Position numbers and translations under genes: made by a program
DNA from: a virus
Strand: one strand, 5' to 3'
DNA: 47,123 nt
IMG/VR virus record: IMGVR_UViG_3300025949_000038
Coordinates: 1-47,123 of that record
In this document: in pieces, positions 1-47,123 of the stretch
Numbering within the stretch: the first letter of the stretch is position 1
Layout of the letters: each line of letters opens with the position of its first letter
Notes under the pieces: generated by a model
What the model saw: only the letters and a program-made list of their open reading frames with translations
Told to the model about the DNA's origin: nothing
The model's database searches: none

Positions 1-109
1 ATTTCCGCGTGCGGAGGATCGTGACATCGTGCGTTGTCGTAGGCATAGAAGGCGCAGCGGGGGCCGCTGGTGCGGGCATTTGCGCAGGCTGCGGCATCAT
101 GGCGTTCAT
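1..109 (-). CDS. Portal protein, C-terminal subunit, haplotype A (truncated by window edge)
   Basis: Partial gene: only the first 36 codons lie in the window, and the rest runs off the left edge. The start ATG at 109 shares its A with the TGA of the upstream portal N gene (TGATG overlap). The Met/Pro/Ala-rich leader, followed by HDVTILRTRK, matches the start of the complete copy at 41685-43403. A TAG lies in this frame two codons upstream of the ATG, so the reading frame is not open into the N-terminal gene. Confidence 0.85.
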   Translation of the reverse strand, partial: MNAMMPQPAQMPAPAAPAAPSMPTTTHDVTILRTRK

Positions 110-678
110 CAACTAGTAGCCTCTGCGGGCTCGGCAGCCTCGTTGTTGACCGTATGCTCGATGATCTCCAACCCGCTATCAGGCTGCATCACAGCCTGCG
201 CCAGCAATGCAAACTGATCCTCATTGAGATCGTAATAGGTCTCTTTTTCCTCTTCCTCGCGCTCGTCCCACCAAACCTTCACAATCCCGTTCTTCAAGAG
301 CAGCGCATCCTTGATGAATGAGTACATCACCATGAAGCCAGGATTCTGCTGCATAAACACATGGTTCACATAGTCGGTTTCCTGCTGTGCGCCCTGCTCG
401 TCCTCTGGACCAACCGGCTCAAACCTGACAACCTCGTCAGAGCCCGCGAAGATGTCCATGAGGTGTGGCATTAGGCCCTCAACGACATCGGCAACGTCAG
501 ACGAAATCGCGCTGGAACGGCCGATTTCAGACGGCAGATCCATTTCCATGTCGCCATTGTAATAGCGATCGTTGCGCTCACGCTCTAGGGTCAGCTTGGC
601 TGATTGGGTAGCCGCAAGTGCGTCCGCTTTCTGCGTTGAGATCAGGGAGCGCAGCTCGGACGTGGAGAGCTTGGGCAT
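109..678 (-). CDS. Portal protein, N-terminal subunit, haplotype A
   Basis: 189 aa, nearly identical to the copy at 43403-43972. It resembles the N-terminal part of SU10/P22-type portal proteins: a charged helical start (LERERNDRYYNG), the signature GRSSAISSDVADVVEGLMP, then FAGSDEVVRFEP and the DALLLKNGIVKVWW segment. Related portals are usually single proteins of about 700 aa, whereas this ORF stops in an Ala/Glu-rich linker. The ATG at 678 overlaps the TGA of the upstream 53-aa gene and was preferred over the longer ORF starting at 714. It should form the dodecameric DNA channel at the portal vertex with the downstream C-terminal subunit. Confidence 0.85.
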   Translation of the reverse strand: MPKLSTSELRSLISTQKADALAATQSAKLTLERERNDRYYNGDMEMDLPSEIGRSSAISSDVADVVEGLMPHLMDIFAGSDEVVRFEPVGPEDEQGAQQETDYVNHVFMQQNPGFMVMYSFIKDALLLKNGIVKVWWDEREEEEKETYYDLNEDQFALLAQAVMQPDSGLEIIEHTVNNEAAEPAEATS

Positions 679-2435: not shown

Positions 2436-2439
2436 GCTG

Positions 2440-2679: not shown

Positions 2680-2882
2680 TTCTTCACTCCGTCCAATAGA
2701 CCGCGAGCCTTCGATTTGATCTTGTTCTCTTCGGACTTGGAGATATTGCCGGCGTTGTATGACCGGGTTGCGCCTGAGATCGCCATACGCTGGTGGGTGG
2801 CATCGTTCACAGGGAACGATTTACCAGGGCCAGCGAATGAGCTCTTGGGCATTGACTTGCGCTTGCCGGATGAAAGTTTCAT
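2676..2882 (-). CDS. Small basic protein, haplotype A only
   Basis: 68 aa, rich in Lys and Ser. It contains SFAGPGKSFPVNDATHQRMA and a Lys/Ser-rich end, KSKARGLLDG. I associate this pattern with small conserved phage and prophage proteins of unknown role (DUF6582-like). ATG at 2882 overlaps the TGA of the upstream 52-aa gene by 4 nt. In haplotype B the same position is occupied by an HNH endonuclease gene (46086-46634). Confidence 0.65.
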   Translation of the reverse strand: MKLSSGKRKSMPKSSFAGPGKSFPVNDATHQRMAISGATRSYNAGNISKSEENKIKSKARGLLDGVKK

Positions 2883-3037
2883 GCTGGGTCCTTCTCAGGT
2901 GCTTGGTAGTTCGGCTGTACGGGCGGCATTTCGCAGGGGGCAATCTCAGCCCATGAATCAGCAACAAGCTTATCCATGGTTGCCTTGCGTTCTTCGCGGC
3001 GCTTCCAATCGCGTAGCTGGACTACGTTTTCAGCCAT
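2879..3037 (-). CDS. Small conserved protein, haplotype A
   Basis: 52 aa starting MAENVVQLRDWKRREERKA, with a charged helical N-terminus and a Pro-rich end. It is nearly identical to 46631-46789 in haplotype B over 45 residues, and only the last few codons differ, at the point where the neighbouring gene changes. Its conservation in both haplotypes and start/stop overlaps support it as real. Function unknown. Confidence 0.65.
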   Translation of the reverse strand: MAENVVQLRDWKRREERKATMDKLVADSWAEIAPCEMPPVQPNYQAPEKDPA

Positions 3038-3053
3038 CAAATCAAACCGCCCA

Positions 3054-3167
3054 TCAGTGGCCGCTCCGAAACGGATTGAATACCGTCAGCAGCAAAATAA
3101 AACCAATGATCGAACCAACCCCTGCGAGCCCGATTAGGACGAACAGGACGGTGATCGCGGTTTCCAT
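3054..3167 (-). CDS. Tiny membrane protein, haplotype A only
   Basis: 37 aa. METAITV is followed by an uninterrupted hydrophobic stretch (residues about 5-30) with Gly-rich turns, then a short polar tail. A single-pass or hairpin inner-membrane peptide is likely. ATG at 3167 overlaps the stop of the upstream 33-aa gene. Haplotype B lacks it entirely: there the 33-aa and 52-aa genes abut directly. Confidence 0.55.
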   Translation of the reverse strand: METAITVLFVLIGLAGVGSIIGFILLLTVFNPFRSGH

Positions 3168-3268
3168 CAGATCTTGCTCACCGGCACGAGCTTGCCGCCC
3201 TTCTCAACGATCTTGGCCTGACCGTCTCGGATCATGCGGGCGAGTAACTTGAGCTGGTCGGTGGTCAT
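3167..3268 (-). CDS. Tiny conserved protein, first gene of late operon, haplotype A
   Basis: 33 aa, MTTDQLKLLARMIRDGQAK and a basic end. The same peptide with three substitutions near its ends begins the late operon in haplotype B (46789-46890), so this short ORF is under selection. It is the most promoter-proximal gene of the leftward late unit. Function unknown; small charged helical peptide. Confidence 0.6.
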   Translation of the reverse strand: MTTDQLKLLARMIRDGQAKIVEKGGKLVPVSKI

Positions 3269-3271
3269 CTG

Positions 3272-3301
3272 GTTATACTCTTTTCGCGGTTTTAGTATAA
3301 C
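3272..3301. promoter_or_regulatory. Dyad GTTATACT-N14-AGTATAAC before the late operon
   Basis: A perfect 8-bp inverted repeat (3272-3279 and 3294-3301) lies just upstream of the first late gene of haplotype A. Each arm contains TATACT, which resembles a -10 hexamer on either strand. It may be an operator or an activator site. Haplotype B lacks it and carries an unrelated hairpin at 46910-46935. Confidence 0.4.
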
Positions 3302-3308
3302 GAAGGGG

Positions 3309-3399
3309 TTTCGCGCGCCGCCTCGCCTAATGAGCGCTCTCGCGTTCTATCGCGGCAGGGGAGCTTTAGGCGCTGCGGGTGGCTGAGGGGCGCGCGAAA
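3309..3399. other. Nested inverted-repeat element (possible structured RNA) at the early/late junction
   Basis: The outer arms TTTCGCGCGCC (3309-3319) and GGCGCGCGAAA (3389-3399) pair perfectly. After a one-base bulge, CCTC (3321-3324) pairs with GAGG (3385-3388). Inside, GCCTAA (3325-3330) pairs with TTAGGC (3366-3371), and CGCG (3341-3344) with CGCG (3351-3354). Haplotype B (46958-47048) has two changes here: A3329 becomes G, which keeps a G-U pair if read on the plus strand, and C3347 becomes T in a hairpin loop. No ORF is supported in this stretch. Confidence 0.5.
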
Positions 3400-3404
3400 T
3401 GGAA

Positions 3405-3435
3405 ACGCCCGCTCTGGATTTCTCCATGCGGGCGT
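3405..3435. terminator. Strong hairpin between early and late leftward operons
   Basis: ACGCCCGC (3405-3412) pairs with GCGGGCGT (3428-3435). Inside, TGGA (3415-3418) pairs with TCCA (3423-3426) around a TTTC loop. It lies downstream of the last early leftward gene (stop at 3502). The following tract is T-poor in both directions (TAATTT on plus, TTTCCATTT on minus), so efficient intrinsic termination is uncertain. Identical at 47054-47084 in haplotype B. Confidence 0.5.
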
Positions 3436-3501
3436 AATTTCGGATGCTGAATGCGCGTATAGATGATTCGTTAAAGGACGAGAATCCGGTCGAATACGGC
3501 T

Positions 3502-17398: not shown

Positions 17399-17719
17399 AT
17401 GAATCCAGGTGAAGACGATCCGGTTACGTTGCAAGAGGCCGTCGATATCGTCTATCGGGGGAAGATCAAGGTTTCGACCTTGCGCCTGATGGCTGAACGA
17501 GATCAGGTTCACATTTTCAAAGTCGGCCGGCGCTGGTTCACGACGCTGCGCAGCGTGCGAGAGATGAAAGACCGATGCCCAGGAAATCGAAAGGTGCCCG
17601 CCTCTATCTCGATGAGGAGCGAGGCCAGTGGGTTATCCGAGACGGATCGCGTTTCATCCGCACTAGTTGCGCTGAGTCAGACCACGAGGGCGCTGAAGCG
17701 AAACTCGCGGAGTACATAG
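17399..17719 (+). CDS. xis: Excisionase-like HTH protein
   Basis: 106 aa. VTLQEAVDIVYRGKIKVSTL, then RLMAERDQVHIFKVGRRWFT and SVREMKDRC, is a MerR/Xis-type winged helix as found upstream of phage integrases. The reading frame continues 145 nt into the integrase gene in another register; the extra Ser-rich tail may be nonfunctional overlap. It is expected to bend attachment-site DNA and promote excision. Only a weak Shine-Dalgarno is seen. Confidence 0.7.
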   Translation: MNPGEDDPVTLQEAVDIVYRGKIKVSTLRLMAERDQVHIFKVGRRWFTTLRSVREMKDRCPGNRKVPASISMRSEASGLSETDRVSSALVALSQTTRALKRNSRST

Positions 17720-18588
17720 CCAAGAAGTACAAGCCGCCCGCTGTTGCGTCGCCGCTGATTGCTGATGTGCTCCTGGTCTATGCGCAGGAGAAGTTGCCGA
17801 AGACGAGAGCCGCCGACAAGGCGGCGCATAACATATCCAACCTGACGCCCTTCTGGGGCCGGAAGAAAGCCGACGACGTGAACATTGCGACCTGCGAGGA
17901 ATACGCGAAGACCCGGCCACAGGCCGCGGCTCGGCGCGACCTCGAAGTTCTGCGCGCGGCGCTCTATTACTGGCACGAACACAAGGCCCAGCTCGCCAAG
18001 GCGCCGCTAGTCGCTCTGCCAGGCAAGGGCGCTCCGCGCGAGCGCTGGTTGACGCAGGAGGAGGCCAAGCGCCTGCGCAAGGCCGCGATGAAGTGGCCGC
18101 ACCTCTACCGCTTCGTGATACTCGGCCTGAAGACCGGCTCGCGGTCGGGCGTTCTACTCGATCTCAAATGGGATCAGATCAACCTCCGCAGCGGCGTGAT
18201 GGACCGGAAGGCTGCCGGCGAGACCGAGGCCGCCAACAAGCGCAAGCCGCCCGTCAGGCTCGGCCGATCCGTGGTGCGCCTGATGCGTCGCTGGAAGGCA
18301 AAGGACGTGGTCGAGGTGGACGGCAAGAAGGTCCAGATCCCGCACGTCATCCACTACAACGGCAAGCCCGTGGACTCGCTCAAGAAGTCATGGGCGCTCG
18401 CGTGCGAGGCCGCCAAGCTGGAGGATGTCAGCCCGCACACGATGCGCCACACCCGCGCGACCTGGCTGATGCAGGCCGGCGTCGATCTGTGGGAAGCCGC
18501 GGGCCATCTCGGAATGACTGTGAAAGTGTTAGAAACAACCTACGGGAAGCACCATCCTGACTTCCAATCCGAAGCGTCTGAGGTATGA
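17575..18588 (+). CDS. int: Tyrosine recombinase integrase
   Basis: 337 aa, compact phage type. The N-terminal part (1-55) resembles an arm-binding domain, 55-145 a core-binding SAM-like domain, and 155-330 the catalytic domain. Catalytic residues are R190 (TGSRSG), H288 and R291 (HTMRHTR), H311 (GHLGM) and nucleophile Y323. It inserts the circular phage into the tRNA-Val gene through the attP site that begins 56 nt downstream. The gene overlaps the excisionase frame at its start. All key residues are present, so it should be active. Confidence 0.95.
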   Translation: MPRKSKGARLYLDEERGQWVIRDGSRFIRTSCAESDHEGAEAKLAEYIAKKYKPPAVASPLIADVLLVYAQEKLPKTRAADKAAHNISNLTPFWGRKKADDVNIATCEEYAKTRPQAAARRDLEVLRAALYYWHEHKAQLAKAPLVALPGKGAPRERWLTQEEAKRLRKAAMKWPHLYRFVILGLKTGSRSGVLLDLKWDQINLRSGVMDRKAAGETEAANKRKPPVRLGRSVVRLMRRWKAKDVVEVDGKKVQIPHVIHYNGKPVDSLKKSWALACEAAKLEDVSPHTMRHTRATWLMQAGVDLWEAAGHLGMTVKVLETTYGKHHPDFQSEASEV

Positions 18589-19485: not shown

Positions 19486-19676
19486 CCACCAGCATCAAGG
19501 TTGTGAACGACGGGCACTATCCGGTCGTCGTCAAGGTGGTCGAGTGCGAGCGCCCTCGCGATCTAGGCACCGCCGTGGATCAACACGACTTGCAGCCGGG
19601 CGAATCCTCGCCGTCGATTACCGTCTACGGATGGCGACGCTATGTCATCGTCGGCGAGATGGACCCCGGCACCTAA
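19482..19676 (+). CDS. Small beta-rich protein
   Basis: 64 aa from ATG 19482 (ATGA overlap). SIKVVNDGHYPVVVKVVECE, then LQPGESSPSITVYGWRRYVI: alternating strands, possibly a single beta-sandwich. No family recognised. Confidence 0.55.
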   Translation: MTTSIKVVNDGHYPVVVKVVECERPRDLGTAVDQHDLQPGESSPSITVYGWRRYVIVGEMDPGT

Positions 19677-19696
19677 CTGCGACGAGGAGAGTGAGC

Positions 19697-19903
19697 ATGA
19701 CGCTAGTGAAGCACAGCACCTTTGGTTACTTGCCATTCTGCACGCCGAAGAAGGGCACTCCTTGGTTCGCCGGGAATGTCCAGATTGGCTACACAGCGGC
19801 CGATGCTCGCGCGGCTTTCGTGCGGGCCTGCGGACAGGAATGGGATTCCCTCAAGAAAGAAGGATGGCGCATTGTGCGCGTGGAAATCAGACTTGCAAAC
19901 TGA
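19697..19903 (+). CDS. Unknown small protein
   Basis: 68 aa from ATG 19697, with GAGGAGAG upstream. MTLVKHSTFGYLPFCTPKKG, WFAGNVQIGYTAADARAAFV and EGWRIVRVEIRLAN. No family recognised; the good ribosome site supports it. Confidence 0.55.
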   Translation: MTLVKHSTFGYLPFCTPKKGTPWFAGNVQIGYTAADARAAFVRACGQEWDSLKKEGWRIVRVEIRLAN

Positions 19904-19938
19904 CCGGTTCAGCGGTGAAGCGGGGACAGGAGGACAGC

Positions 19939-20223
19939 ATGGCGACCAAGCAGAACAAGTCGATGCGCGAGACGTTCGGATCTGACGCCAACTGCTTGGC
20001 GATGCTGATCCACCTTGCCTCTGCCATCAAAGGGTTCGATGACGGCCCGTTCAAGCAGGGATTCGAGGCCGCGATCGAAGAGGCCGGCGCCTATCTCGAC
20101 CACCTCAACGGCGATGGCAACGACGTGGCGCAGACCTTGATGGAGCATATGTGCGGCCTGATCAATGGATGCTATGCCCTAACCGAGATCAACGGACCGC
20201 TCGGGGTCGTCAACAAGGACTAG
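19939..20223 (+). CDS. Unknown helical protein
   Basis: 94 aa from ATG 19939, with ACAGGAGG upstream. SMRETFGSDANCLAMLIHLA, FKQGFEAAIEEAGAYLDHLN and VAQTLMEHMCGLINGCYALT. Mostly amphipathic helices. No family recognised. Confidence 0.55.
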   Translation: MATKQNKSMRETFGSDANCLAMLIHLASAIKGFDDGPFKQGFEAAIEEAGAYLDHLNGDGNDVAQTLMEHMCGLINGCYALTEINGPLGVVNKD

Positions 20224-20254
20224 GGGCCAATGGTGAGGCAAGGACAGTAGGCAC

Positions 20255-20485
20255 ATGGCAACAATCTGGATTATCGGCCGCAAGGTTGAACTGCCGAATG
20301 GCCACAAGTACATGGCCGAACCATTTATCGCTTTCGGCTCAAACGAGGCGGCGCAGGAAGCCTGCGATATGATCGAGAGGGTTTCAGGGGAGCGGCCGAT
20401 TATCACCAGCGCTCCAATCAACGATTTTAGCGCGACCGCAGTATCGAATGGAGAGCGCGGCGCAGATAACGGAGAGCTAACATGA
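20255..20485 (+). CDS. Unknown small protein
   Basis: 76 aa. ATIWIIGRKVELPNGHKYMA, EPFIAFGSNEAAQEACDMIE and SGERPIITSAPIN. Compact alpha/beta pattern. ATGA overlap joins it to the next gene. No family recognised. Confidence 0.5.
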   Translation: MATIWIIGRKVELPNGHKYMAEPFIAFGSNEAAQEACDMIERVSGERPIITSAPINDFSATAVSNGERGADNGELT

Positions 20486-20808
20486 GCAACGTTACGGACT
20501 TCCCGAGCGAGCCTAAGCGTGATCTGATCGCTGAGATGACCGGGCCAGAGAACGGAGGCTGTTCTGTCATTATCGATGGTCGGCTTATGCCTCACGTCGC
20601 CATGTATGACCGTGGCGGGGAAATAGAGTTCGTGATCGACCATCGCCTGGCATTCGGCTTCCCGCGCGATCTGGCCTACCAAGCCGCATCGTTCGCTTTT
20701 GCAGCTATGGCCGTCGCCGCTGGATTCCGTCACCCGAGCGGGCTTCACAAAACGCAGCATCCTTATGCAAGCGAGTGCGTAAGGCTCGACGGACTCCCGC
20801 GATCCTGA
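20482..20808 (+). CDS. Conserved small protein
   Basis: 108 aa. KRDLIAEMTGPENGGCSVII, RLMPHVAMYDRGGEIEFVID and LAYQAASFAFAAMAVAAGFR. The helix around residues 76-90 is hydrophobic but interrupted by polar residues; membrane insertion is uncertain. No family recognised. Confidence 0.55.
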   Translation: MSNVTDFPSEPKRDLIAEMTGPENGGCSVIIDGRLMPHVAMYDRGGEIEFVIDHRLAFGFPRDLAYQAASFAFAAMAVAAGFRHPSGLHKTQHPYASECVRLDGLPRS

Positions 20809-20818
20809 GCAGGGAGCG

Positions 20819-21001
20819 ATGATGAAGGTCCGAGTTTACCAAGACGAACGCTACCCAGATTATGGCCTGCTTGAATACACATCAGGCACTTATGACACAG
20901 TTGATGTCAGCGACGAGTTTTACGCAGAGTGGAAACGCGTCAATGACCTGTACGATGAAATGCAGGACAAACTGGAAAAGCTGTACCTACAGCGATCATA
21001 A
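20819..21001 (+). CDS. Small acidic protein
   Basis: 60 aa. MKVRVYQDERYPDYGLLEYT and VDVSDEFYAEWKRVNDLYDE then a helix. GCAGGGAG precedes tandem ATGs. Beta strand start plus C-terminal coiled coil. Unknown. Confidence 0.55.
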   Translation: MMKVRVYQDERYPDYGLLEYTSGTYDTVDVSDEFYAEWKRVNDLYDEMQDKLEKLYLQRS

Positions 21002-21018
21002 ACAGGGAGGGAAAGACC

Positions 21019-21279
21019 ATGGACGAGATTGAGACGCAAGCCTGCGAGCACTGCAACAAGGAAGTGCCTTTGGAGGACATGACGCGCCAATCTGACGGCT
21101 GGTTCTGCGAAGACTGTTATGCGGAGTTCAAAGCCAACTTCGATGCCTGCGACCACCTATGGTCCCCTGACGTGGACGACATGGGAGACGAGGGTCAGTA
21201 TTGTCCAAAGTGCTGCGGGTTCGTCGCCGACGGTAACTTCGAATCCCTCTTCGGCAAGCCCGCACCCGCGCGATCCTAA
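21019..21279 (+). CDS. Double zinc-ribbon protein
   Basis: 86 aa. CEHCNKEVPLEDMTRQSDGW then CEDC, and CDHLW with CPKCCGF: two likely zinc-binding sites. AGGGAGGG lies upstream. Such proteins often bind nucleic acid or partners. Function not assignable. Confidence 0.6.
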   Translation: MDEIETQACEHCNKEVPLEDMTRQSDGWFCEDCYAEFKANFDACDHLWSPDVDDMGDEGQYCPKCCGFVADGNFESLFGKPAPARS

Positions 21280-34240: not shown

Positions 34241-35940
34241 CACACTTCACCATCAGGCGAAATCGAGGGTTCGACGCCAGCGCAATAGGTCCAGTTCGTT
34301 CCAGCAGGAATCCTGCCCTTGAAGCGCGAATAGCGCGTGGAAAGATGGAAGTCACAGCGCCCGGTTCGCGAGTTGATCGCGATCTCTGCCGTCTGGCCCG
34401 GTGTGGCCTGCTGCGTCTCACGCGAGGAACATGAGCCGTAAAAGCTCGCCGCATCCGTAATCGGCCGAAAGCCATCGATATGAATACGCTGGCCGTCCGT
34501 GCCCTGCTCTGCGCTCTCAAGTGTGGCTTCGAGGTTGGAACCACGGAAAAAGCCCTGCTTGTGCGTGATATCGAACTGCGCAATTTCCGGCTGAACCGCC
34601 GTCGAATAGGCATCCAGGCTCAGCGTCAAGGCGTCGATCGAGGACGAGATCGTGTCGAGGTTTTCCAGTGTCAGGCCGGTTTGCGAGATACCGAGCAGAT
34701 ATTCACCTGAGATTGTGATCGTGAAGAACCGGGCCAACGCGCCGTCATAGCCCATGATCTTATCATACACGCCGGCAGAACCGGCACCTGATTTATAGGC
34801 CCAATAAACCCGCGTGGTGCGCGGATCTGATGCGCCGATCATCAATTGCAGGCTGGTGCGGTCGAGATCATTCAGGAACGTCCGGTCAACCTTCTCGCGA
34901 CCGATCTGCTGCGGAAAGCCGCCGGGATCGATCTTCTGAAAGCCCTGGTTGGAATAGAAGAAGATCGTTGAGCCGGCCCGAACGATTGAGTATGGGGCAA
35001 ACAAGCCGACCTGATCGCTGATGCGTTCGATCTGGAAGATAATAGCGGACCCTGGGATATACGACATGCGCCGCATCGCCTGGTCCTGGAACACAATCCC
35101 GAACTCACCGCCGGCAACCCCCCGGACAATGCCGCCGTCAGGGAAATCCTGATAGTTGGAGCCGAGCGTTACGTTATCCCACGAGGTCGAGGCGTTGAAG
35201 TTATTGAGACCAGACCATTGGATGCGGTAGGGCTGCGAGAGAAGCCCGGAGAGCACGAGAAACCGGCCAACCACTGAGATGTAGGCTGCCTGCGGAGGGC
35301 TACCAAGCGAGTTCGAGAATGCAGTGGCAGACGACAGATCAAAGACCTGCAAGGGCTCGTTGGCTTGGGTTGCCCAGACAAGGCTTCCCGTCTGCACGAA
35401 CTGCCATTGAGCGTTGGAAGACAGCGAGGCATAGTGTGAAGTAACGTTGACCGTGCCAGAGCCGCCCGAGGTATTGATGGCCGTGCCACCGGGAGTCGCA
35501 GAGACGTTGAAGCTGCTGCCGCTTGGGCTTTTGGCATAGTAGACTGTGCCGGCAACAATCTGGGAAGGGAGCGTTCCCGATCCGGCGCCAAATACTATCG
35601 GCTCCTGGTCAGCGAATGAATTGGCGTAAGTTACAACGCCGGGGCTTGCGTTCGAGATCGTACAGTTTGCAATCCGGCTCACCGGAATCCAGCTAAGATC
35701 CGTGTTGTTCAGCCGATAGAGGCCGTTGCTAGTGCCGGCGAAGACCTGAACCGTGCCGTCAGATTTCAGGGCGTAGAAGGCGCCACGGCACGCGGAAGGC
35801 ATGGCTTGGGTTGCCGCTGCAAACGATGGGAACGGGCCGTAACCGTCCCCGCGAGGAATGACGTTCTGGATCGCGTGTGCAGTGTCGTTCTCATAATCCG
35901 AAGTGTCAGGCAACCACTCATTGAGTTTGAGAAGCGGCAT
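34240..35940 (-). CDS. Tail hub / packaged-DNA stabilisation protein (P22 gp10-like)
   Basis: 566 aa. N-terminal NEWLPDTSDYENDTAHAIQN typical of gp10-like hubs, then blades with YRIQWSGLNNFNASTSWDNV, YQDFPDGGIVRGVAGGEFGI, VFQDQAMRRMSYI, APYSIVRAGSTIFFYSNQGF. Residues about 95-170 (TYANSFADQEPIVFGAGSGT to NTSGGSGTVNVTSHY) look like an inserted beta-sandwich that interrupts the first blade. It seals the portal-adaptor channel. Confidence 0.8.
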   Translation of the reverse strand: MPLLKLNEWLPDTSDYENDTAHAIQNVIPRGDGYGPFPSFAAATQAMPSACRGAFYALKSDGTVQVFAGTSNGLYRLNNTDLSWIPVSRIANCTISNASPGVVTYANSFADQEPIVFGAGSGTLPSQIVAGTVYYAKSPSGSSFNVSATPGGTAINTSGGSGTVNVTSHYASLSSNAQWQFVQTGSLVWATQANEPLQVFDLSSATAFSNSLGSPPQAAYISVVGRFLVLSGLLSQPYRIQWSGLNNFNASTSWDNVTLGSNYQDFPDGGIVRGVAGGEFGIVFQDQAMRRMSYIPGSAIIFQIERISDQVGLFAPYSIVRAGSTIFFYSNQGFQKIDPGGFPQQIGREKVDRTFLNDLDRTSLQLMIGASDPRTTRVYWAYKSGAGSAGVYDKIMGYDGALARFFTITISGEYLLGISQTGLTLENLDTISSSIDALTLSLDAYSTAVQPEIAQFDITHKQGFFRGSNLEATLESAEQGTDGQRIHIDGFRPITDAASFYGSCSSRETQQATPGQTAEIAINSRTGRCDFHLSTRYSRFKGRIPAGTNWTYCAGVEPSISPDGEV

Positions 35941-36539
35941 TAGGGCGTGACGCTCAGCACGCGAATTGCCATGCCCTGACGCTCGTTGAAGTCAAGCATG
36001 GCGATCTCGTCAAATACCTCGTCCCTGCGGGCCTTCCAGAGAGCGGCTTTCGTGGCGTCCTTGGTGAAGGCAGTTGCCTCTACCAACGTTCCGAACAGAT
36101 AAGCGTCGGGATGATTGGTCCAAAGCCAATTCAGCGTTCCGCTAACCGCAGCGGTTCGCTGATAGTAGACCATTTGTAGTCCGGTATCGTCCTGGGGGTT
36201 GATCGAGATGCTTGTACCCTCGATCGTGAATTCCTGCGGCGTACCTGCAACAGAATAAGGCGTGTCATACTTGAACGCAGACGGAGCGACGTAATTCAAA
36301 TCAGTCGTGGGCTGCCCCGTCCACGTAACGCGGCGATAGCCGAGAAAATCAGTCGGGAGTGTTCCAACACCCGCCGTCGTGGCAATGGAAACAGTCGTCT
36401 CCATCGGCCGGACCTTCAACCTCCGACACGCCGACGCTTCAAACAGCGTAATCATGTCGGGAATGTAGGCTGTCAGATCAGACCGAGCGAGCCAGTTTGC
36501 TACTTGGGCCTGAAGATCGGCATAAGTGGAAAGGCTCAC
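35940..36539 (-). CDS. Head-tail adaptor (P22 gp4-like)
   Basis: 199 aa. YADLQAQVANWLARSDLTAY, then IPDMITLFEASACRRLKVRP is the helical start common to these adaptors. Then DFLGYRRVTWTGQPT and a C-terminal LVEATAFTKDATKAALWKAR. It connects the portal ring to the hub. Single-base overlap with hub start. Confidence 0.8.
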   Translation of the reverse strand: MSLSTYADLQAQVANWLARSDLTAYIPDMITLFEASACRRLKVRPMETTVSIATTAGVGTLPTDFLGYRRVTWTGQPTTDLNYVAPSAFKYDTPYSVAGTPQEFTIEGTSISINPQDDTGLQMVYYQRTAAVSGTLNWLWTNHPDAYLFGTLVEATAFTKDATKAALWKARRDEVFDEIAMLDFNERQGMAIRVLSVTP

Positions 36540-38304: not shown

Positions 38305-39267
38305 TCAGCTCGTTGTGTTGTCAAATACGCCGCCGCTTGCTTTCTCGTTTCGACTGACCAATGCATATTCACTCACGACAGCGCGCCGCTCAGAGTCGCC
38401 GGTACGGGCCAGCGGGATCGAGAGCATCGCGCGACCCTTCATGGTCGCCATTGCCCACTTCTCGGTTTCGAGAACGAGCACGTCACGGGTGCGCTGGAAA
38501 CGGTTCGCCATGACCTTCAGCTTGCCGAAGTCGGATTCGTAAGCGTCAACCGACGCAACGATCTTCTTCGACGAAGCCTGCTCGATCGGCGAGGAACGGC
38601 CGGTGAAGGTCGAGAACACCTGCTTGTTGAAGGCGCCGGTATAGATGATGTCCGGCTTGCCGCCGGAGGTCCAGATCGCGGACAGGACAGTCTTCAGGCG
38701 CGCTTCGGTGAACGCAATCTGCGTGCCATCGGTACGGGTGCCCGTGCCATCGGCCGCAGACGGGTCAGCCGCGCCGCCGGCAGAGCCCTTAGAGGTGTTG
38801 GTCTTGATCCAGGACAGGATAGAGGCAGTCTTACGCACAACCGCGTCAGAGCCGGTCGCCTTGGCCTGGTTGGTGCCAACGAGCGTCGATTCCATGTCGC
38901 GCTTGAGCTCAAGGCCCTTCAACATGACCTGGTAGTCAAGCTCATTGCCACGGCCGGCGTGAATGACCGCCTGCTGGGTACCCGAGACCTGGGCCGACTT
39001 GCGCGAGATCTGGCAGATGTTGCCAAGACGAACAGTCGCGGTCGCAGCATCGGCAACGATGTCGTCGCCTTCCAGTTGGTAGTTCGCAGTGGACGCAGCG
39101 GCAAGAGCCTGGGTCTGCCATTCGTGGTTGACCGCAGTTGCAGTCTCACGGGCAATGCCCGACATGAAGGGCGTATCAGTCGGGTCGATACGATAGATGA
39201 TGTTGGAAAGATCTTCGCGGTTGCCCACGGCCTCATAGGTCGCGAGCGCATTGGTCGGGAGAGACAT
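38305..39267 (-). CDS. Major capsid protein (SU10-like, DUF5309-type)
   Basis: 320 aa. NREDLSNIIYRIDPTDTPFM, then HEWQTQALAAAS, NICQISRKSAQVSGTQQAVI, RDMESTLVGTNQAK, and C-terminal ESDFGKLKVMANRFQRTRDV with LVLETEKWAMATM. This series is diagnostic of SU10-type HK97-fold capsid proteins. No maturation cleavage site visible. It follows the scaffold gene and precedes a terminator. Confidence 0.9.
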   Translation of the reverse strand: MSLPTNALATYEAVGNREDLSNIIYRIDPTDTPFMSGIARETATAVNHEWQTQALAAASTANYQLEGDDIVADAATATVRLGNICQISRKSAQVSGTQQAVIHAGRGNELDYQVMLKGLELKRDMESTLVGTNQAKATGSDAVVRKTASILSWIKTNTSKGSAGGAADPSAADGTGTRTDGTQIAFTEARLKTVLSAIWTSGGKPDIIYTGAFNKQVFSTFTGRSSPIEQASSKKIVASVDAYESDFGKLKVMANRFQRTRDVLVLETEKWAMATMKGRAMLSIPLARTGDSERRAVVSEYALVSRNEKASGGVFDNTTS

Positions 39268-39277
39268 TGTAGTTCCT

Positions 39278-40354
39278 TTAAGCTGATTTGCGCTGGGCCA
39301 TGAGGAGCGCTAATGCGTCGTCGATGGAGCCTGAGGCGCTGAGTTTCTGATTGAGGGCTTGAACGGATTGGGCCTGCGCAGCACCTGAGGGCTGCTTGGT
39401 GCCCGGCTTCTGAACCGGCGGGAGAGGCTTGGTGACAGCAGCAACCTTGGCTTTCTGAATGTCCCGAAGCTTCAGGGATTCTGCGAGGAGTCGCTGCACG
39501 CGATGGTCGTAAATCGAGAGCTTCGACTTACCCATGGCGAGGTCAGCGAGTTCGCTTTCTTTGAAACCGAGTTCGGGTAGCAATTCAGTGGCAACGCGCT
39601 TTGTTAGCGCCTCGCCCTTGTCCTTGTCGGCAAGCTCCGGGATGAATTCGGCCGCCTTCGCATTCTCCTCTTGGACGTGCTTCGCCCAATTGGTTTGCTC
39701 GGCGGTCTGCTTCTCCTGTGCGGCCCTGTCCGATTCCTGCTTTACAGCCTGTAGGCGCATCTGATGCACCTGCCATGACTGAAACCGGAACGGATCTTCG
39801 GCTTGGAGCTTGACCACATCCTCCATCGTCCTGATGTCGCTGAATTGCGCCTGATTGACGCTTTCCAGTTCCCTCATGAGCGCGGGAAGCTGTGCTTCGT
39901 ATTGCTGTTTTACCTGCTCTGCCTTCTGGCGCTCGGCCTCGACGGCCTTGCGCTGTTCAGCGAGTTCATTTTGACGCGTGCGGAAATCGCGGTCCCGCTC
40001 CTGTTCGCGAGTGTGCAGGTATTCCTGCGTCTCACGAGGCAAGGATTGGAAACGTTCCTTCTCGGCTTGCGTCCAAGACCTCGGCGGATCGATGGGCGGA
40101 AGGTTATCTTCCGGTTCGGCCGCTTGCGGTTGTTCAGCGGGGTCCGTTGCCGGGTCGCTGTCTGCTTGCGCAGATTCGGGTTGCTCAGCAGCCTTTGCAG
40201 GCGCTTCCGCTTGTTCTTCCTTTTTCTTCTCGGGCGGCTCGGTGAAGATCCGCATTGCGTCATCGAGAGAAAGCGCCTCCTGGCTGAATGCCGGGGGCTG
40301 ATAGTCAATGGGTCCGGGCGCGGCCTCTTGGGCCACGGGAGCGGTATCAGACAT
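39278..40354 (-). CDS. Scaffold protein
   Basis: 358 aa. Highly charged: an acidic, Glu/Pro/Ala-rich N-terminal third and a long helical coiled-coil middle (EREQERDRDF-like, then QRKAVEAERQKAEQVKQQYE). The C-terminal half has KGEALTKRVATELLPELGFK and YDHRVQRLLAESLKL. Directly upstream of the capsid gene. It should drive prohead assembly and be released later. Confidence 0.85.
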   Translation of the reverse strand: MSDTAPVAQEAAPGPIDYQPPAFSQEALSLDDAMRIFTEPPEKKKEEQAEAPAKAAEQPESAQADSDPATDPAEQPQAAEPEDNLPPIDPPRSWTQAEKERFQSLPRETQEYLHTREQERDRDFRTRQNELAEQRKAVEAERQKAEQVKQQYEAQLPALMRELESVNQAQFSDIRTMEDVVKLQAEDPFRFQSWQVHQMRLQAVKQESDRAAQEKQTAEQTNWAKHVQEENAKAAEFIPELADKDKGEALTKRVATELLPELGFKESELADLAMGKSKLSIYDHRVQRLLAESLKLRDIQKAKVAAVTKPLPPVQKPGTKQPSGAAQAQSVQALNQKLSASGSIDDALALLMAQRKSA

Positions 40355-41538: not shown

Positions 41539-41688
41539 CTAGCCCAGCAGCGCTACGAGTGGCATAAAAACAGGCCAGAGCACGGCGACAAGGAGCTTGC
41601 TGCCCAAAGACTTTTCACCGTGTTTCCGGGCGTACCACCACACTACAGTAGAGCCCATAGCGTACAGATAAATTGCCAGCCACATCAT
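41539..41688 (-). CDS. 49-aa membrane protein
   Basis: ATG 41688 overlaps the portal C stop (ATGA). MMWLAIYLYAMGSTVVWWYA, charged loop RKHGEKSLGSK, then LLVAVLWPVFMPLVALLG. Two-helix hairpin. Unknown role; unusual place between portal and scaffold. Confidence 0.55.
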   Translation of the reverse strand: MMWLAIYLYAMGSTVVWWYARKHGEKSLGSKLLVAVLWPVFMPLVALLG

Positions 41689-43403
41689 TTACCGTTCCCC
41701 TTCGGTTGCTGTTTCATCTGCGCAAGCTTGGCTTCGTGTGCCTTATCGGCCTGCTCAAGTTTCTGGTCATGCACCTGCTGCTCGTGCGCCATTGCCATGT
41801 CGTGCTTGTGAGCATCTGCAACAACACCCACGACAGTCTCGGCGATCTTGGCGTGATGCGCTTGCTGGTCCGCGCCGGCCTTGCGCTCCATCTCCAGCGC
41901 CTTCATATGCGCGTCGATGATCTTCAGTTTGGCATCCATCTCGGCCTTGAACTGCGCCAGCTCGGCGGCGTCCTGCGCCTTCTGCTTGTCAAGCTGCGCC
42001 TTGAGTGCCAGTTCCTGCTGGTCGTTCTGCGCCTGGGCCTGGATCGCCATGACCTTGGGATCGGGCGCCGGAGGCTGCGGCGGATACTTCGGCGAGCCAT
42101 CCGGGTTCTTCTCGCTGGGATCACAGAAGAACCTATCGGGGTTCTTGTAGCCCATGATCTTGCAGAGCTCGGTCGCCATGTTGAACAGCTTGTCATCCAT
42201 GACCATGTGAGCCTTGCCGCCGGCAATAAGCTCCTTCTGGACATTCGCGAGCGCCATGACCTGGGCGAACTGCTGCGTCTTGGACCCGTTGCCGAGCCCA
42301 ACCGCAATCGTCATGTCATTGCGGGTTTTCCAGTTCCTTGGATCGACCGAAACCCACTGATTGCGAAGCCTGACCGTTTGCGCTTCCGAGCCGTGCTTTC
42401 TGATCGTGCCATGAAGCAGCGAGAACATATCCCGCACGCCTTCCGCTAGCACGCGGGCAATCAGCTTGATCCGCATCTGCGAGGCTGAAAACACCTGCGC
42501 TACAGCGGTCGCACTCTGGTTCTGGAGCGCGTTGGCGTCGATACCCTGCGTCTGCTTGGCAAGGCCCGTCTTGGCCTCCAGATCGGCATCGAGGTATTGC
42601 AGCATCGGATAAATGCTGCCGGTAATATCTGGAACAACCTGCCAATTAAGGCCGCCGGCTGTCTTGGTGCGGACAATCCCGCCCGGCCGTGAAACCAGCA
42701 AATCATCCAGTGTGTTCGGCCCGGCGTTCTGCTCGGCCACCTCAACGCGCGGATTGTTGTGCAGATACAGATTGTCGAGAGCCCCGCGCTTCATCGCGGT
42801 TTTCTCTTTCTGGATCGGAATCACCAGATCGGCAATCGCCTTGCCAAAGAACCTGTGCGGGACAGGAATCGGAGTTGCCCCGGCAAATGGCATCTGGTCG
42901 AACTCTTCAACCGCCTCCTTGCCGTCCCTCGTCAGGATCTCGCCATCGTCGCCGCCAGTGATGACCTGGTATAGCTTGGGCTTGTTGTTGCCCTCGTAAT
43001 CCATCCGAATATAGTGTTCGGTGACTTTAACGATCTGAGCGGCAATGTTGGTGGTCGAACCACCCGCTTGGGAATGTTCGTAGACGGTATCACGCGCGAT
43101 CGTCTCAGCCTGATTAAGCCCCGTGTATTCCGGGAGCTTCATCACCTGCGCTTCGTCGTAACCCTCCGCAATCCACTCAGCGCGGCTCTTGGTTACGATG
43201 TCATGATAGGCGTAGTTGCAATCCTTGATGTTGCGAGCGTTGCGCTCGATGCCGAATTCTTCCGGGGGAACGCCGAGAACCTTGGCCTGGGCATACTTGC
43301 GCGTGCGCAGGATTGTGACGTCATGCGTTACAGTTGGCATAGGAGGCGCAGCGGAGGCCGCCGGTGCGGGCATTTGCGCAGGCTGCGGCATCATAGCATT
43401 CAT
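41685..43403 (-). CDS. Portal protein, C-terminal subunit
   Basis: 572 aa from ATG 43403, which shares its A with the TGA of the N-terminal gene (TGATG); TTG 43406 is preceded in frame by TAG. After a Met/Pro/Ala leader the portal core continues: HDVTILRTRKYAQAKVLGVP, PEEFGIERNARNIKDCNYAY, DGKEAVEEFDQMPF, LVIPIQKEKTAMKRGALDNL, GLNWQVVPDITGSIYPMLQY. From about 420 it is a long Gln/Ala/Lys coiled coil (barrel region). Together with 43403-43972 it reconstructs a full portal; how two chains assemble is open. Confidence 0.85.
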   Translation of the reverse strand: MNAMMPQPAQMPAPAASAAPPMPTVTHDVTILRTRKYAQAKVLGVPPEEFGIERNARNIKDCNYAYHDIVTKSRAEWIAEGYDEAQVMKLPEYTGLNQAETIARDTVYEHSQAGGSTTNIAAQIVKVTEHYIRMDYEGNNKPKLYQVITGGDDGEILTRDGKEAVEEFDQMPFAGATPIPVPHRFFGKAIADLVIPIQKEKTAMKRGALDNLYLHNNPRVEVAEQNAGPNTLDDLLVSRPGGIVRTKTAGGLNWQVVPDITGSIYPMLQYLDADLEAKTGLAKQTQGIDANALQNQSATAVAQVFSASQMRIKLIARVLAEGVRDMFSLLHGTIRKHGSEAQTVRLRNQWVSVDPRNWKTRNDMTIAVGLGNGSKTQQFAQVMALANVQKELIAGGKAHMVMDDKLFNMATELCKIMGYKNPDRFFCDPSEKNPDGSPKYPPQPPAPDPKVMAIQAQAQNDQQELALKAQLDKQKAQDAAELAQFKAEMDAKLKIIDAHMKALEMERKAGADQQAHHAKIAETVVGVVADAHKHDMAMAHEQQVHDQKLEQADKAHEAKLAQMKQQPKGNGK

Positions 43404-43972
43404 CAACTAGCCGCCTCTGCGGGCTCGGCAGCTTCGTTATTGACCGTATGCTCGATGATCTCCAACCCGCTATCCGGCTGCATTACAGCCTGTGCCAGCA
43501 GTGCAAACTGATCCTCATTGAGATCGTAATAGGTCTCTTTTTCCTCTTCCTCGCGCTCGTCCCACCAGACCTTCACAATCCCATTCTTCAGCAACAGCGC
43601 ATCCTTGATGAATGAATACATCACCATGAAGCCAGGATTCTGCTGCATAAACACATGGTTCACATAGTCGGTTTCCTGCTGGGCGCCCTGCTCGTCCTCC
43701 GGTCCAACCGGCTCAAACCTAACAACCTCGTCAGAGCCAGCAAAGATGTCCATGAGGTGCGGCATCAGCCCTTCAACGACATCAGCAACATCGGATGAAA
43801 TAGCGCTAGACCTGCCGATTTCAGACGGCAGATCCATTTCCATGTCGCCATTGTAATAGCGATCGTTGCGCTCACGCTCCAGGGTCAGCTTGGCTGATTG
43901 AGTGGCCGCAAGCGCGTCCGCTTTCTGCGTCGAGATCAGGGCGCGCAGCTCGGACGTGGAGAGTTTAGGCAT
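43403..43972 (-). CDS. Portal protein, N-terminal subunit, haplotype B
   Basis: 189 aa, near identical to 109-678 (for example Ala for Ser in ELRxLIS near the start and A for T in the last residues). It carries the GRSSAISSDVADVVEGLMP and KNGIVKVWWDEREEEEKE segments of SU10/P22-type portals. It ends in an acidic-Ala linker before TGATG. ATG 43972 overlaps the stop of the 54-aa gene. The same split in both haplotypes argues against a sequencing error. Confidence 0.85.
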   Translation of the reverse strand: MPKLSTSELRALISTQKADALAATQSAKLTLERERNDRYYNGDMEMDLPSEIGRSSAISSDVADVVEGLMPHLMDIFAGSDEVVRFEPVGPEDEQGAQQETDYVNHVFMQQNPGFMVMYSFIKDALLLKNGIVKVWWDEREEEEKETYYDLNEDQFALLAQAVMQPDSGLEIIEHTVNNEAAEPAEAAS

Positions 43973-44136
43973 CAGAGGCCAATCGTCTCAACGGTCCACA
44001 CCGGATCGCCTGGATAGCGATGAGCGGAATGGAAAATCAACTGTCCAATTGAGATAACACCTAACCCAATAATTGGAAATTTGCAGGGATGGTCATGCCA
44101 CCCGCTGCCGCGCCGGCACATTGATATATTGATCAT
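43972..44136 (-). CDS. Small protein between terL and portal, haplotype B
   Basis: 54 aa from ATG 44136 (ATGA overlap with terL stop). It has MINISMCRRGSGWHDHPCKF, then one hydrophobic helix (PIIGLGVISIGQLIF). Unrelated to the 53-aa protein in the same slot of haplotype A. Possibly membrane-associated. Unknown. Confidence 0.55.
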   Translation of the reverse strand: MINISMCRRGSGWHDHPCKFPIIGLGVISIGQLIFHSAHRYPGDPVWTVETIGL

Positions 44137-45446
44137 GCTACAGCCGTGCGCGGGTAATTGATCGAGCGGTTGAAGTTCGCAGCCCGGCCCGGCTCCTCGT
44201 AACAAACAGCCATCAGGCCGAGCGAGTCCGCAGCATGCGACGACCAATCATGATCAGGACCGAGACCAACATTGCGTGTTTCGTCTTTCCGTTCGTGATA
44301 AAATCCGACCGCTTGCCGGCCAGATTCCGTTGTTGCTTCATTCCACCACATCTTGGGACCAAGCCGACGCACAGCCTCGATCCGCATAGACGCGGCGCCT
44401 TTGCCCTGGTTCTTGACCGGGGGTTCAACCTTGAAGCCGGCATCGCGAAGATGATCTTCGTAGCGCTTGCCGGTGATATTGTTTTCGTTCACGCCATCGT
44501 GCGGCAGATAGAGCACGGCGTTTTCATAACCACTCTTGCGCAGCCAAGCGACGTGAGCAGCCAGCACTTGGCCGACCGCCTCGTAATAGTCGAGGATGCG
44601 GATTTCCTGCCCTACCCACTGGACAACCCAGATGGTGAAGGCGTCGGCATTTGCGCCAGAGCCGCCGATGTCGATAAACGCTCGAAGCGGCAACAGCGGG
44701 TCAGCAGTAACAACCCCTATGCGGCCTTGTCGCTTGGCCTCTGAGAGCATTGCAGCGTAATAGGCGCCCTCGAAGGCTGCCGCGTAACCGCCTTCGTAAG
44801 TGTGGTCGTAGCGCTCTGGATAGCGCTCCAGTTCGATCTTACGTTCTTCTTCGAGCTCGGCCGTCCAGAACGGATTATCCCGCCAGTTGGCCTGGACAAC
44901 CGTTGCGCCCTTCGGCAGCCCAAGCGGGCCGAGAAAGAAATCATCAACCGCATCACTCTTGCGGGTTGGGTTCCAACTCGCCCATATTTCAGAGCTAGGC
45001 GAGCGGATTGTAGGCCTGAGCAATGACAGCGAGCGCGCCGAGATCGATTGCGCCTCTTCCATCCAGGCCCGATGAAAGCCCTCCAGCGACTTTACGGAAT
45101 CCGCCGAATAGTCCTTCATACCCTTGAAGATCGCCACCCCATCCTTGGGAAGTTCGATCCTGTCATTCCAGATCTTGAAGCCGTCAGCTTCCGTAAGCCT
45201 TAGCCTCCTGATCTTGTCTTCTATCAGCAGCTTGGAACTTTGCGTCAGATCGCGTTGAACCTCTCGGATGCACACCATCCGCAGACCCTCGCCGTAATCA
45301 CCTGGCGCCCTTAATGCGTCCTCAACTGCAAGCTCGCCGAAGAAATGGGACTTGCCAGAGCCGCGCCCTCCATGTGCCCCCTTGTATCGGGAGGGATGCA
45401 GTAGCGGCTCGAATACCTTAGCCGTCTTGATTTGAAGGGCTGACAA
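44133..45446 (-). CDS. terL: Terminase large subunit, haplotype B
   Basis: 437 aa, same architecture as 839-2152: Walker A GGRGSGKS (26-33), AWMEEA (127-132), nuclease D260, D318 and D408 regions. Six substitutions separate the copies, mostly conservative, while many third-codon positions differ. This is the copy contiguous with the complete portal and capsid genes, so it likely belongs to the main genome path. Overlaps terS by 29 nt. Confidence 0.95.
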   Translation of the reverse strand: MSALQIKTAKVFEPLLHPSRYKGAHGGRGSGKSHFFGELAVEDALRAPGDYGEGLRMVCIREVQRDLTQSSKLLIEDKIRRLRLTEADGFKIWNDRIELPKDGVAIFKGMKDYSADSVKSLEGFHRAWMEEAQSISARSLSLLRPTIRSPSSEIWASWNPTRKSDAVDDFFLGPLGLPKGATVVQANWRDNPFWTAELEEERKIELERYPERYDHTYEGGYAAAFEGAYYAAMLSEAKRQGRIGVVTADPLLPLRAFIDIGGSGANADAFTIWVVQWVGQEIRILDYYEAVGQVLAAHVAWLRKSGYENAVLYLPHDGVNENNITGKRYEDHLRDAGFKVEPPVKNQGKGAASMRIEAVRRLGPKMWWNEATTESGRQAVGFYHERKDETRNVGLGPDHDWSSHAADSLGLMAVCYEEPGRAANFNRSINYPRTAVA

Positions 45447-45687
45447 TCACGCGCTCGATGCGGTGGAGGATCGAAACAGGATTATCCTCGTCACCTGAGA
45501 TTTGCGTGGCGGCTAGATCCGGCATCACTTTCTTGAGCAATCCCAAGCCTGCGGATACTTGTGTTGCACTCATGTCACGCTCACCCTGAACGTGCTCGAT
45601 AAGCGCATTCAAGATATTGCTGTTTTTGATTTTAACCCGGTGCTCATCCGACATGCGGAATCCGGGCTGTCGGCCACGCTCAGCCAC
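45418..45687 (-). CDS. terS: Terminase small subunit, haplotype B (different N-terminus)
   Basis: 89 aa. It starts ERGRQPGFRMSDEHRVKIKN, then SNILNALIEHVQGERDMSAT, QVSAGLGLLKKVMPDLAATQ, unlike haplotype A. The C-terminus HRIERVIVSPSNQDG is shared. Same position and same 29-nt overlap with terL. A terminase small subunit with another DNA-binding head is the natural reading, implying altered pac/cos recognition with a conserved motor-contact tail. Confidence 0.7.
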   Translation of the reverse strand: MAERGRQPGFRMSDEHRVKIKNSNILNALIEHVQGERDMSATQVSAGLGLLKKVMPDLAATQISGDEDNPVSILHRIERVIVSPSNQDG

Positions 45688-45705
45688 TTGTCACCCGGTT
45701 ACGCA

Positions 45706-46089
45706 TCAGATCTTCACCTTGTAAGCATCCAGAGCACATTGCGCGAGCCTTTCAGCCCACTTAACCCGATCCCTTAGGTCAGGCAGATTGAAACCCTTGC
45801 TGTTCTCAGCCATGAATTTGCGGGCAGCTTCGTTGAAATCCGAGGGAGAATATGGAGGCAAATCAGCCGTCGCAATAGTGACGCTCTCACACGAGCCGCC
45901 GGTGATGCGGCCAGCCTGAGTGCTCCCGCACCCGTCAGCCAGCGGCACAGGCGCCCCATAACCCCACACAGGATGCCAAACTACCTTGTTCGGCTCGGCC
46001 TTCGGGTTCTTCTCCTCGAAGTCGGCTTTCTGCTCTTGACAGTTGAGCTTGCGGGCGATCGAGGTGAAGTCGAATACGGCTAGGGTCAT
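45706..46089 (-). CDS. Conserved protein upstream of terS, haplotype B (long form)
   Basis: 127 aa from ATG 46089 (ATGA overlap with the HNH gene). It shares VFDFTSIARKLNCQEQKADF and WAERLAQCALDAYK with haplotype A's 79-aa form, but has about 50 more residues in the middle (ESVTIATADLPPYSPSDFNE, ARKFMAENSKGFNLPDLRDR). The long form may be ancestral. Unknown function. Confidence 0.65.
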   Translation of the reverse strand: MTLAVFDFTSIARKLNCQEQKADFEEKNPKAEPNKVVWHPVWGYGAPVPLADGCGSTQAGRITGGSCESVTIATADLPPYSPSDFNEAARKFMAENSKGFNLPDLRDRVKWAERLAQCALDAYKVKI

Positions 46090-46634
46090 GCGACGTGAGC
46101 CCATACTTTGCGATTGACGGCATCGTCGATCGTTTGACGTGAAACATTGAACATCTTGGCGATGTCCTTGCGGTAAACTCCCGTAGAAGCGAGACGTCGG
46201 GCTTCCTTGACTCGATCGACACTCAGCTTCGCATTCGTGTGGTCATCGCCCAGCATAAGCGTCCCATGCAGTGATTTGTCTGCGGCATTCTCGGCGGCAG
46301 TTCCCCATGCAAGATTAGAGGGTCGATTGTTCCTTTTGTTGCCATCCAAGTGGCGGATCTGAGCGTCATCAAACGGCTTTGATCCAATGAACGCCTCAGC
46401 AACCAATTGATGGGCTGAGGTCCTTACCCGCTCACCCTCAAGTGGATATAGATCGTATTGGTCATACCAGTCTTCGCTTTTGCGATATGGAGCCCTGAGA
46501 GCCGTATCAAGAATACCCCTCCGGTTAGGCAAGCGCCTGCGAATGTGACCTAGTTCGCTTACCTCGTACTCCGGGCAGCATACGGCAGTACGCCACTCCA
46601 ACCCGTCAATTGGCATCTCAACAGTCTTGATCAC
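46086..46634 (-). CDS. HNH homing endonuclease, haplotype B only
   Basis: 182 aa from GTG 46634. A NUMOD4-like N-terminus (YEVSELGHIRRRLPNRRGIL), HNH core (SAHQLVAEAFIG, QIRHLDGNKRNNRPSNLAWG, TAAENAADK) and C-terminal HTH (VYRKDIAKMFNVSRQTIDDA). It replaces the 68-aa gene of haplotype A with 4-nt overlaps to both neighbours, so it entered without breaking the operon. It could drive the exchange seen around terS. Confidence 0.9.
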   Translation of the reverse strand: MIKTVEMPIDGLEWRTAVCCPEYEVSELGHIRRRLPNRRGILDTALRAPYRKSEDWYDQYDLYPLEGERVRTSAHQLVAEAFIGSKPFDDAQIRHLDGNKRNNRPSNLAWGTAAENAADKSLHGTLMLGDDHTNAKLSVDRVKEARRLASTGVYRKDIAKMFNVSRQTIDDAVNRKVWAHVA

Positions 46635-46789
46635 GCGGGGTCATCCGATGGTGCCTGGTAGTTCGGCTGTACGGGCGGCATTTCGCAGGGGGCAATCTCA
46701 GCCCATGAATCAGCAACCAGCTTGTCCATGGCTGCCTTGCGTTCTTCGCGGCGCTTCCAATCGCGTAGCTGGACTACGTTTTCAGCCAT
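46631..46789 (-). CDS. Small conserved protein, haplotype B
   Basis: 52 aa, counterpart of 2879-3037, starting MAENVVQLRDWKRREERKAA. Only the last few residues (SDDPA against EKDPA) and two others differ. The stop falls where the HNH gene replaces the haplotype A gene, so the junction lies inside the last codons. Confidence 0.65.
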   Translation of the reverse strand: MAENVVQLRDWKRREERKAAMDKLVADSWAEIAPCEMPPVQPNYQAPSDDPA

Positions 46790-46890
46790 CAAATCAAACT
46801 CACCGGAACGATCTTGCCGCCCTTCTCAACGATCTTGGCCTGACCGTCTCGGATCATGCGGGCGAGTAACTTGAGCTGGTCGGTGGACAT
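46789..46890 (-). CDS. Tiny conserved protein, first gene of late operon, haplotype B
   Basis: 33 aa, MSTDQLKLLARMIRDGQAK and a basic end, counterpart of 3167-3268. Its stop overlaps the ATG of the 52-aa gene (TGATG); the 37-aa membrane gene of haplotype A is absent here. Confidence 0.6.
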   Translation of the reverse strand: MSTDQLKLLARMIRDGQAKIVEKGGKIVPVSLI

Positions 46891-46909
46891 TCGTCAGACC
46901 CATGCGTTG

Positions 46910-46935
46910 AGGAGGCCTCAGTTTTGAGGGCTCCT
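46910..46935. promoter_or_regulatory. Hairpin before late operon, haplotype B
   Basis: AGGAGGCCTCA and TGAGGGCTCCT form an 11-position stem with one mismatch around GTTT. It replaces the TATACT dyad of haplotype A. No T run, so termination is doubtful; operator or attenuator possible. Confidence 0.4.
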
Positions 46936-47123
46936 AATTACAAAGGATTTCCAAGGGTTTCGCGCGCCGCCTCGCCTGATGAGCGCTCTCGCGTTTTATC
47001 GCGGCAGGGGAGCTTTAGGCGCTGCGGGTGGCTGAGGGGCGCGCGAAATGGAAACGCCCGCTCTGGATTTCTCCATGCGGGCGTAATTTCGGATGCTGAA
47101 TGCGCGTATAGATGATTCGTTAA

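Follow-up and report, generated by a model that had tools for sequence, protein, structure and literature searches.

An SU10-type phage portal encoded in two genes, side by side or with cargo between them, in a large family of mainly Bradyrhizobium phages

Introduction

Phage heads begin on the portal, a nearly universal twelve-fold machine of single chains, which also gates the DNA and links the head to the tail. It is among the most conserved machines of tailed viruses, which makes a portal encoded in two genes unexpected. The portals most like the one described here are those of SU10 and PaP3/Pa223 (PDB 7z44, 7sxk and 9nwm; Pfam PF23899), which resemble it in sequence, in fold and in their place in the head module. 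They are, however, single chains of approximately 700–750 aa, whereas the portal described here is cut at a loop corresponding to about residues 170–180 of 7sxk.

Genes divided in two have been described in relatives of phage T4, namely Aeh1 nrdA with mobE, the T4 topoisomerase genes gp39/gp60 with mobA, and the DNA polymerase genes 43A/43B (PMC2988022). Aeh1 NrdA and 43A/43B are active as two chains, and the stop and start codons of nrdA and mobE overlap as UAAUGA (PMC2988022). The literature searched, which did not extend to most papers in subscription journals or to bioRxiv preprints, yielded no previous description of a split portal.

Results

The two open reading frames are consecutive parts of one portal

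The DNA analysed, which we refer to as the window, is a whole virus contig of 47,123 bp. The upstream of its two portal genes (43403..43972, minus strand) encodes a 189-aa protein, the N-half, that matches the SU10_portal profile PF23899 (6.6e-56) over model positions 2–168 with 190 bits (curated cut-off 30), as well as the portal family phrog_1216 and residues 30–169 of PDB 7sxk; it contains the start of the wing domain, with strands up to ...EIIEHT. The downstream gene (41685..43403, minus strand) encodes the C-half, of 572 aa if it starts at the ATG at 43403, or 573 aa if it starts at the alternative TTG at 43406. This matches PF23899 (2.1e-124) over model positions 171–593 with 417 bits (same cut-off of 30) and aligns with residues 180–647 of 7sxk. 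It begins with an Ala/Pro-rich leader, followed by HDVT... and, judged by position in the fold, the rest of the wing, the stem, the clip and the crown. The phrog_1216 family divides between the N-half and C-half as PF23899 does. Because the two halves cover consecutive, complementary parts of the profile, no conserved part of the portal is missing.

An initial annotation, made without database searches, had described these ORFs as a portal split into two coupled genes. The portal identity is borne out by PF23899, phrog_1216 and the solved portals, all of which match both halves, and the split into ORFs of 189 aa and 572 aa is indeed present in the sequence. With two ORFs in two frames, the locus does not share the single-polypeptide character of SU10-type portals.

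The two ends of the contig match one another (3-3474 against 43297-47123), each being a terminase–portal stretch, with 88–99% identity in the aligned blocks; the alignment has gaps between 2463 and 3300. From the sequence this would fit a phage genome of approximately 43 kb at whose ends two strain variants were joined, and a tandem prophage is not excluded as the source. Copy A of the N-half gene (109..678, minus strand) has the same junction as copy B, and copy A of the C-half gene (1..109, minus strand) is cut by the contig edge. It had been claimed that this second haplotype keeps the split (678-109 and 109-1) despite base differences, and the junction is in fact identical. Between the two N-half copies 36 of the 38 changed codons are synonymous (dN 0.009, dS 0.37).

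Directly upstream of the portal genes is the gene for the terminase large subunit (44133..45446, minus strand; copy A at 839-2152), recognised from its translation and from a homologue so annotated in OP596614. The head module is complete, with genes for a head scaffolding protein (39278..40354, minus strand; phrog_3927, 2.6e-29), an SU10-type major capsid protein (38305..39267, minus strand; PF17236, 1.4e-92) and an SU10-type adaptor protein (35940..36539, minus strand; PF24175, 1.9e-27), along with collar genes. Because an integrase (17575-18588) accompanies the SU10-type capsid protein, adaptor, scaffold and collar genes, the contig represents a temperate SU10-like podovirus.

Most of the relatives also have a split portal

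Scans of viral contigs and bacterial genomes gave 146 non-redundant loci with both portal parts, the window included, and these were assigned to classes by their reading frames. In 19 the portal is a single intact ORF, in 62 it is split with the halves adjacent, and in 65 it is split with ORFs between the halves. Once loci that were broken, cut by contig ends or mere remnants had been removed, there were 58 adjacent loci, 54 with inserts and 19 intact, the 54 each having two complete portal halves with other ORFs between them. The hosts are mainly Bradyrhizobium. Among annotated phages, the portal of Bradyrhizobium elkanii phage ppUSDA76Be-2 (OP596614) is split, and those of more distant relatives, for example Microcystis phage PP496355, are intact.

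Apart from the window, 126 of the 145 non-redundant relatives have a split portal, always divided at the same place, and chance or error is therefore ruled out as the cause of the split. This agrees with the initial annotation, which had argued against a sequencing error and proposed a search for homologues with the same split. It had also held that an intact relative a single base away would refute the split. Intact relatives exist, up to approximately 80% identical, but they differ by more than this: the nearest, L160, has a 10-codon linker where split loci have about 40 codons with a stop. The split is thus a trait of a large family, which the initial annotation missed along with the cargo hotspot and the particle-producing phage described below.

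Five loci (L052, L063, L098, L139:7766-8321 and L142:7515-8072) are remnants with a truncated C gene, in which the C-half stops after about residue 137 and continues into a short membrane-like stretch that ends ...FAKRGFENVARIIKR. Neither of the two whole genomes checked yielded a further piece of portal.

The junction is suited to termination and reinitiation

At the junction (TTGATG, 43401..43406, minus strand) the N-half gene ends AGT TGA, and the A of this TGA (43405-43403) is also the first base of the C-half ATG, giving a one-base overlap (TTGATGA) and placing the C-half in the -1 frame relative to the N-half. A TAG stands two codons before this ATG in the downstream frame (TAG TTG ATG), as had been noted initially. 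A Shine-Dalgarno-like GAGG (43414..43417, minus strand) lies 14 nt upstream of the ATG, within the N-half reading frame. The -1 relation is shared by 58 of the 62 adjacent loci, with CTGATG in 41, and nearly all of the 58 have a TGATG, TAATG or TTGA overlap, mostly TGATG. A Shine-Dalgarno-like match is present at 36 of 49 ATG-overlap junctions, compared with 19.5 ± 3.2 in shuffled sequences. It is mostly at -14, where the conserved end of the N-half (...EATS or EAAS) encodes it. Insert loci show no clear enrichment of this kind at the start of the C-half (12 of 52, with 9.5 expected); their last inserted ORF overlaps the C-half start in 14 of 58.

The one-base overlap of adjacent halves and the consistent -1 frame of the downstream gene would also suit frameshifting or ribosome bypass that fuses the ORFs into a single-chain portal, perhaps along with some split product. 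However, none of the 58 adjacent loci has a canonical slippery heptamer in the permitted overlap, and the stretch in which a shift is permitted amounts to 1 nt in the window and to no more than 16 nt in 16 of the 58. Furthermore, in insert loci frameshifting cannot join the halves, because 0.2–8 kb of other genes separate them, and such separation of complete halves is seen in 54 loci. No intron family reached the Rfam gathering score in 12 insert loci, and none was found in L024/L028. We therefore rejected frameshifting, for want of a heptamer and of a long enough overlap and because the halves are apart in half of the split loci, and consider a chain fused by frameshifting or bypass very improbable. 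An intron or intein was likewise rejected, as Rfam gave no intron and each half has its own start and stop.

The initial annotation had preferred termination–reinitiation to frameshifting, and the absent heptamers, the overlaps of as little as 1 nt and the separation of the halves elsewhere support that preference. The junction also meets what reinitiation calls for, in having overlapping stop and start codons and a nearby upstream Shine-Dalgarno-like site. With no slippery heptamer, a short overlap, an enriched Shine-Dalgarno-like site and no intron, termination–reinitiation is the best reading, although its use by ribosomes is inferred.

The break falls at the turn of a beta-hairpin

It can be seen from the alignments that the break is always between ...(I/V)(I/V)EHT and HDVT..., in the same variable beta-hairpin loop, where intact relatives carry 5–71 residues. 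We examined this position in an AlphaFold model of the intact relative L160, rather than of a pair of halves; the model is of moderate quality (mean pLDDT 64). Its best PDB matches are all portals (9nwm, E 2e-34; 7z44; 7sxk), and its fold matches the portals of SU10, PaP3, Pa223, N4 and DEV. The break corresponds to the turn between strands 170-179 and 185-205 (local pLDDT 75–88), and its assignment to the wing is inferred from the fact that the stem and clip elements come after it. At the tip of a hairpin, strand pairing can keep two chains together.

We consider it highly likely that the portal subunit consists of two polypeptides from two overlapping genes, which assemble non-covalently as a ring of split subunits. 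Ribosomes would finish the 189-aa N-half at the TGA and, by an inferred restart helped by the GAGG 14 nt upstream, would begin again on the overlapping ATG to give the 572-aa C-half. With the break at a beta-hairpin turn in the wing, the two chains could rejoin through the paired strands that flank it. The ring of split subunits would presumably be 12+12, which is again an inference, there being no protein-level evidence of both chains in one ring. The same loop hosts the linkers of 5–71 aa, or whole genes, in relatives.

Both halves are maintained

For each half, dN/dS was 0.01–0.16 across ten close pairs, some of which have over 1 kb of cargo, and for the N-half it was 0.01–0.07; both halves are thus under strong purifying selection, even with cargo between them. 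Distances in the N-half and the C-half are correlated to a similar degree in intact (0.86), adjacent (0.82) and insert loci (r 0.88). The N-half is present at a conserved place in split loci, where it matches the profile no less fully than intact portals do.

The C-half carries the stem, clip and crown, again judged by position in the fold, and could be imagined to build the portal alone, with the N-half vestigial or otherwise employed. The low dN/dS of the N-half, its conserved place, its full profile match and its evolution in step with the C-half make this very improbable.

Phage ppUSDA76Be-2 bears on whether such portals work. Podophage virions were seen by TEM, and DNase-treated particles were enriched in its DNA (PMC10127595); the word "portal" is absent from the main text of that paper. 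The whole record (OP596614) has no portal other than the two halves, which meet at TGATG; the 553-aa C-half (19584-21245) is unannotated and the 184-aa N-half is called hypothetical. Since this particle-sequenced phage has only a split portal, we conclude that split portals very probably package DNA. Its B. elkanii host strain is a polylysogen that also carries a siphophage, which leaves assistance by another portal formally possible.

That an assembly or sequencing error, or a dead prophage, lies behind the split might be suggested by the mixed strains at the contig ends and by the five related remnant loci with a truncated C gene. Yet the same junction is found in independent isolate genomes, in metagenomes and in the particle-sequenced phage, and purifying selection and the complete head module also speak against it. 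We regard the chance of this as negligible, and for the family as a whole it is refuted by the independent isolates and the particle-derived genome.

Variable cargo lies between the halves

The inserts measure 0.23–3.75 kb in fetched loci with both halves complete and about 7–8 kb in some whole genomes. The ORFs in these gaps come from mechanical calling, and 87 of the 105 inserted ORFs of 100 aa or more are oriented in the phage direction. Many inserted proteins (for example L136:8138-9214, L142:6346-7455 and L120:7009-7794) share a C-terminal GGLLGxIQDYxR behind unrelated N-terminal parts, which belong to M23 peptidase, lysozyme-like and glycine-rich families. The exact pattern has 16 matches in 24 whole host genomes (191 Mb), 15 of them between portal halves (two of these at remnants whose C gene is truncated) and one approximately 150 bp upstream of an N-half; the reversed motif gave no match in the same genomes. 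It should be noted that a single group of genomes served both to find the motif and to test it. One gap holds both a two-copy Ivy-type lysozyme inhibitor (L135:5871-6716) and a lysozyme-like motif protein (L135:8097-9203), possibly an immunity pair, a role inferred from sequence.

HNH-type matches were found in very few of 81 inserted ORFs, and homing endonucleases were accordingly rejected as the general content of the gap. With no Rfam intron either, the loci do not have the marks of a split by a homing endonuclease or intron, although the original splitting event could still have been one.

In L064 and L086 the cargo is instead upstream of the N-half. Partial portal copies or duplicated N-half tails occur in or near some gaps, before the C-half start in L155 and also at G022:C25:746604-746873, G028:C76:6351-6734 and G040:C1:26771-29120. 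The partial copies of portal ends suggest, by inference, that cassettes may have been gained by recombination between repeated junctions. In four genomes (G032, G033, G037 and G040) the capsid gene is 6–11 kb from the portal C-half, compared with 2.4 kb in the window, indicating a second expanded region between these genes.

The split has a complex history

The deepest branches of the trees (Azospirillum, Kaistia and others) carry intact portals, which makes the split the derived state. The trees need 6–7 changes between intact and split, at least five of them forced by well-supported branches, and do not support a single origin that was never reversed. Intact portals also occur in some relatives that branch within the split clade, indicating that one chain also works. 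The window belongs to a small clade (with L003–L005) whose nearest neighbours are intact (L160, L040/L180, L042 and L041); its split may hence have arisen separately or, as its tail is like other split tails, come from a recombined junction. Either the split was gained again or acquired with a recombined junction in this group, or it was lost several times. Near-identical tails occur in distant split clades, which would favour shared ancestry or recombination over pure convergence, and L024/L028 look like a further independent split.

Discussion

Natural two-chain portals would show which hinge of the wing tolerates cutting and would give a ready-made handle for splitting or tagging portals, at least one being available in a spontaneously produced laboratory phage. 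The split would also explain why genome annotation loses such portals, as with the unannotated C-half of OP596614. A more tentative idea, which we think may well be wrong, is that the split made the portal gene a cargo slot, and that the GGLLGxIQDYxR tag loads proteins into the virion at or near the portal. Peptidoglycan-attacking and other proteins would then leave the virion together with the DNA or serve against competitors, and immunity genes nearby would protect the lysogen; the toxin, immunity and loading roles are all inferred. A reading of the inserts as polymorphic toxins or ejected effectors, which would call for variable N-terminal domains, a common sorting motif and immunity-like genes close by, rests here on sequence alone: the GGLLGxIQDYxR end, the M23 and lysozyme-like domains and a single Ivy. 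The linkage of the motif to the cargo makes a possible virion-loading signal directly testable.

Like the split genes of T4 relatives, the portal genes specify one protein as two polypeptides from neighbouring genes with overlapping stop and start codons. The T4-relative cases, however, are enzymes split by homing endonucleases, whereas the portal is a ring-shaped structural machine, its split is common to a large family and the inserts are mostly not endonucleases. The gap also resembles the accessory (moron) hotspots of prophages, in which variable genes likewise occupy a fixed place in otherwise conserved prophages. Unlike those hotspots, the slot interrupts a gene that is undivided in relatives, and many of the cargo proteins share a C-terminal motif.
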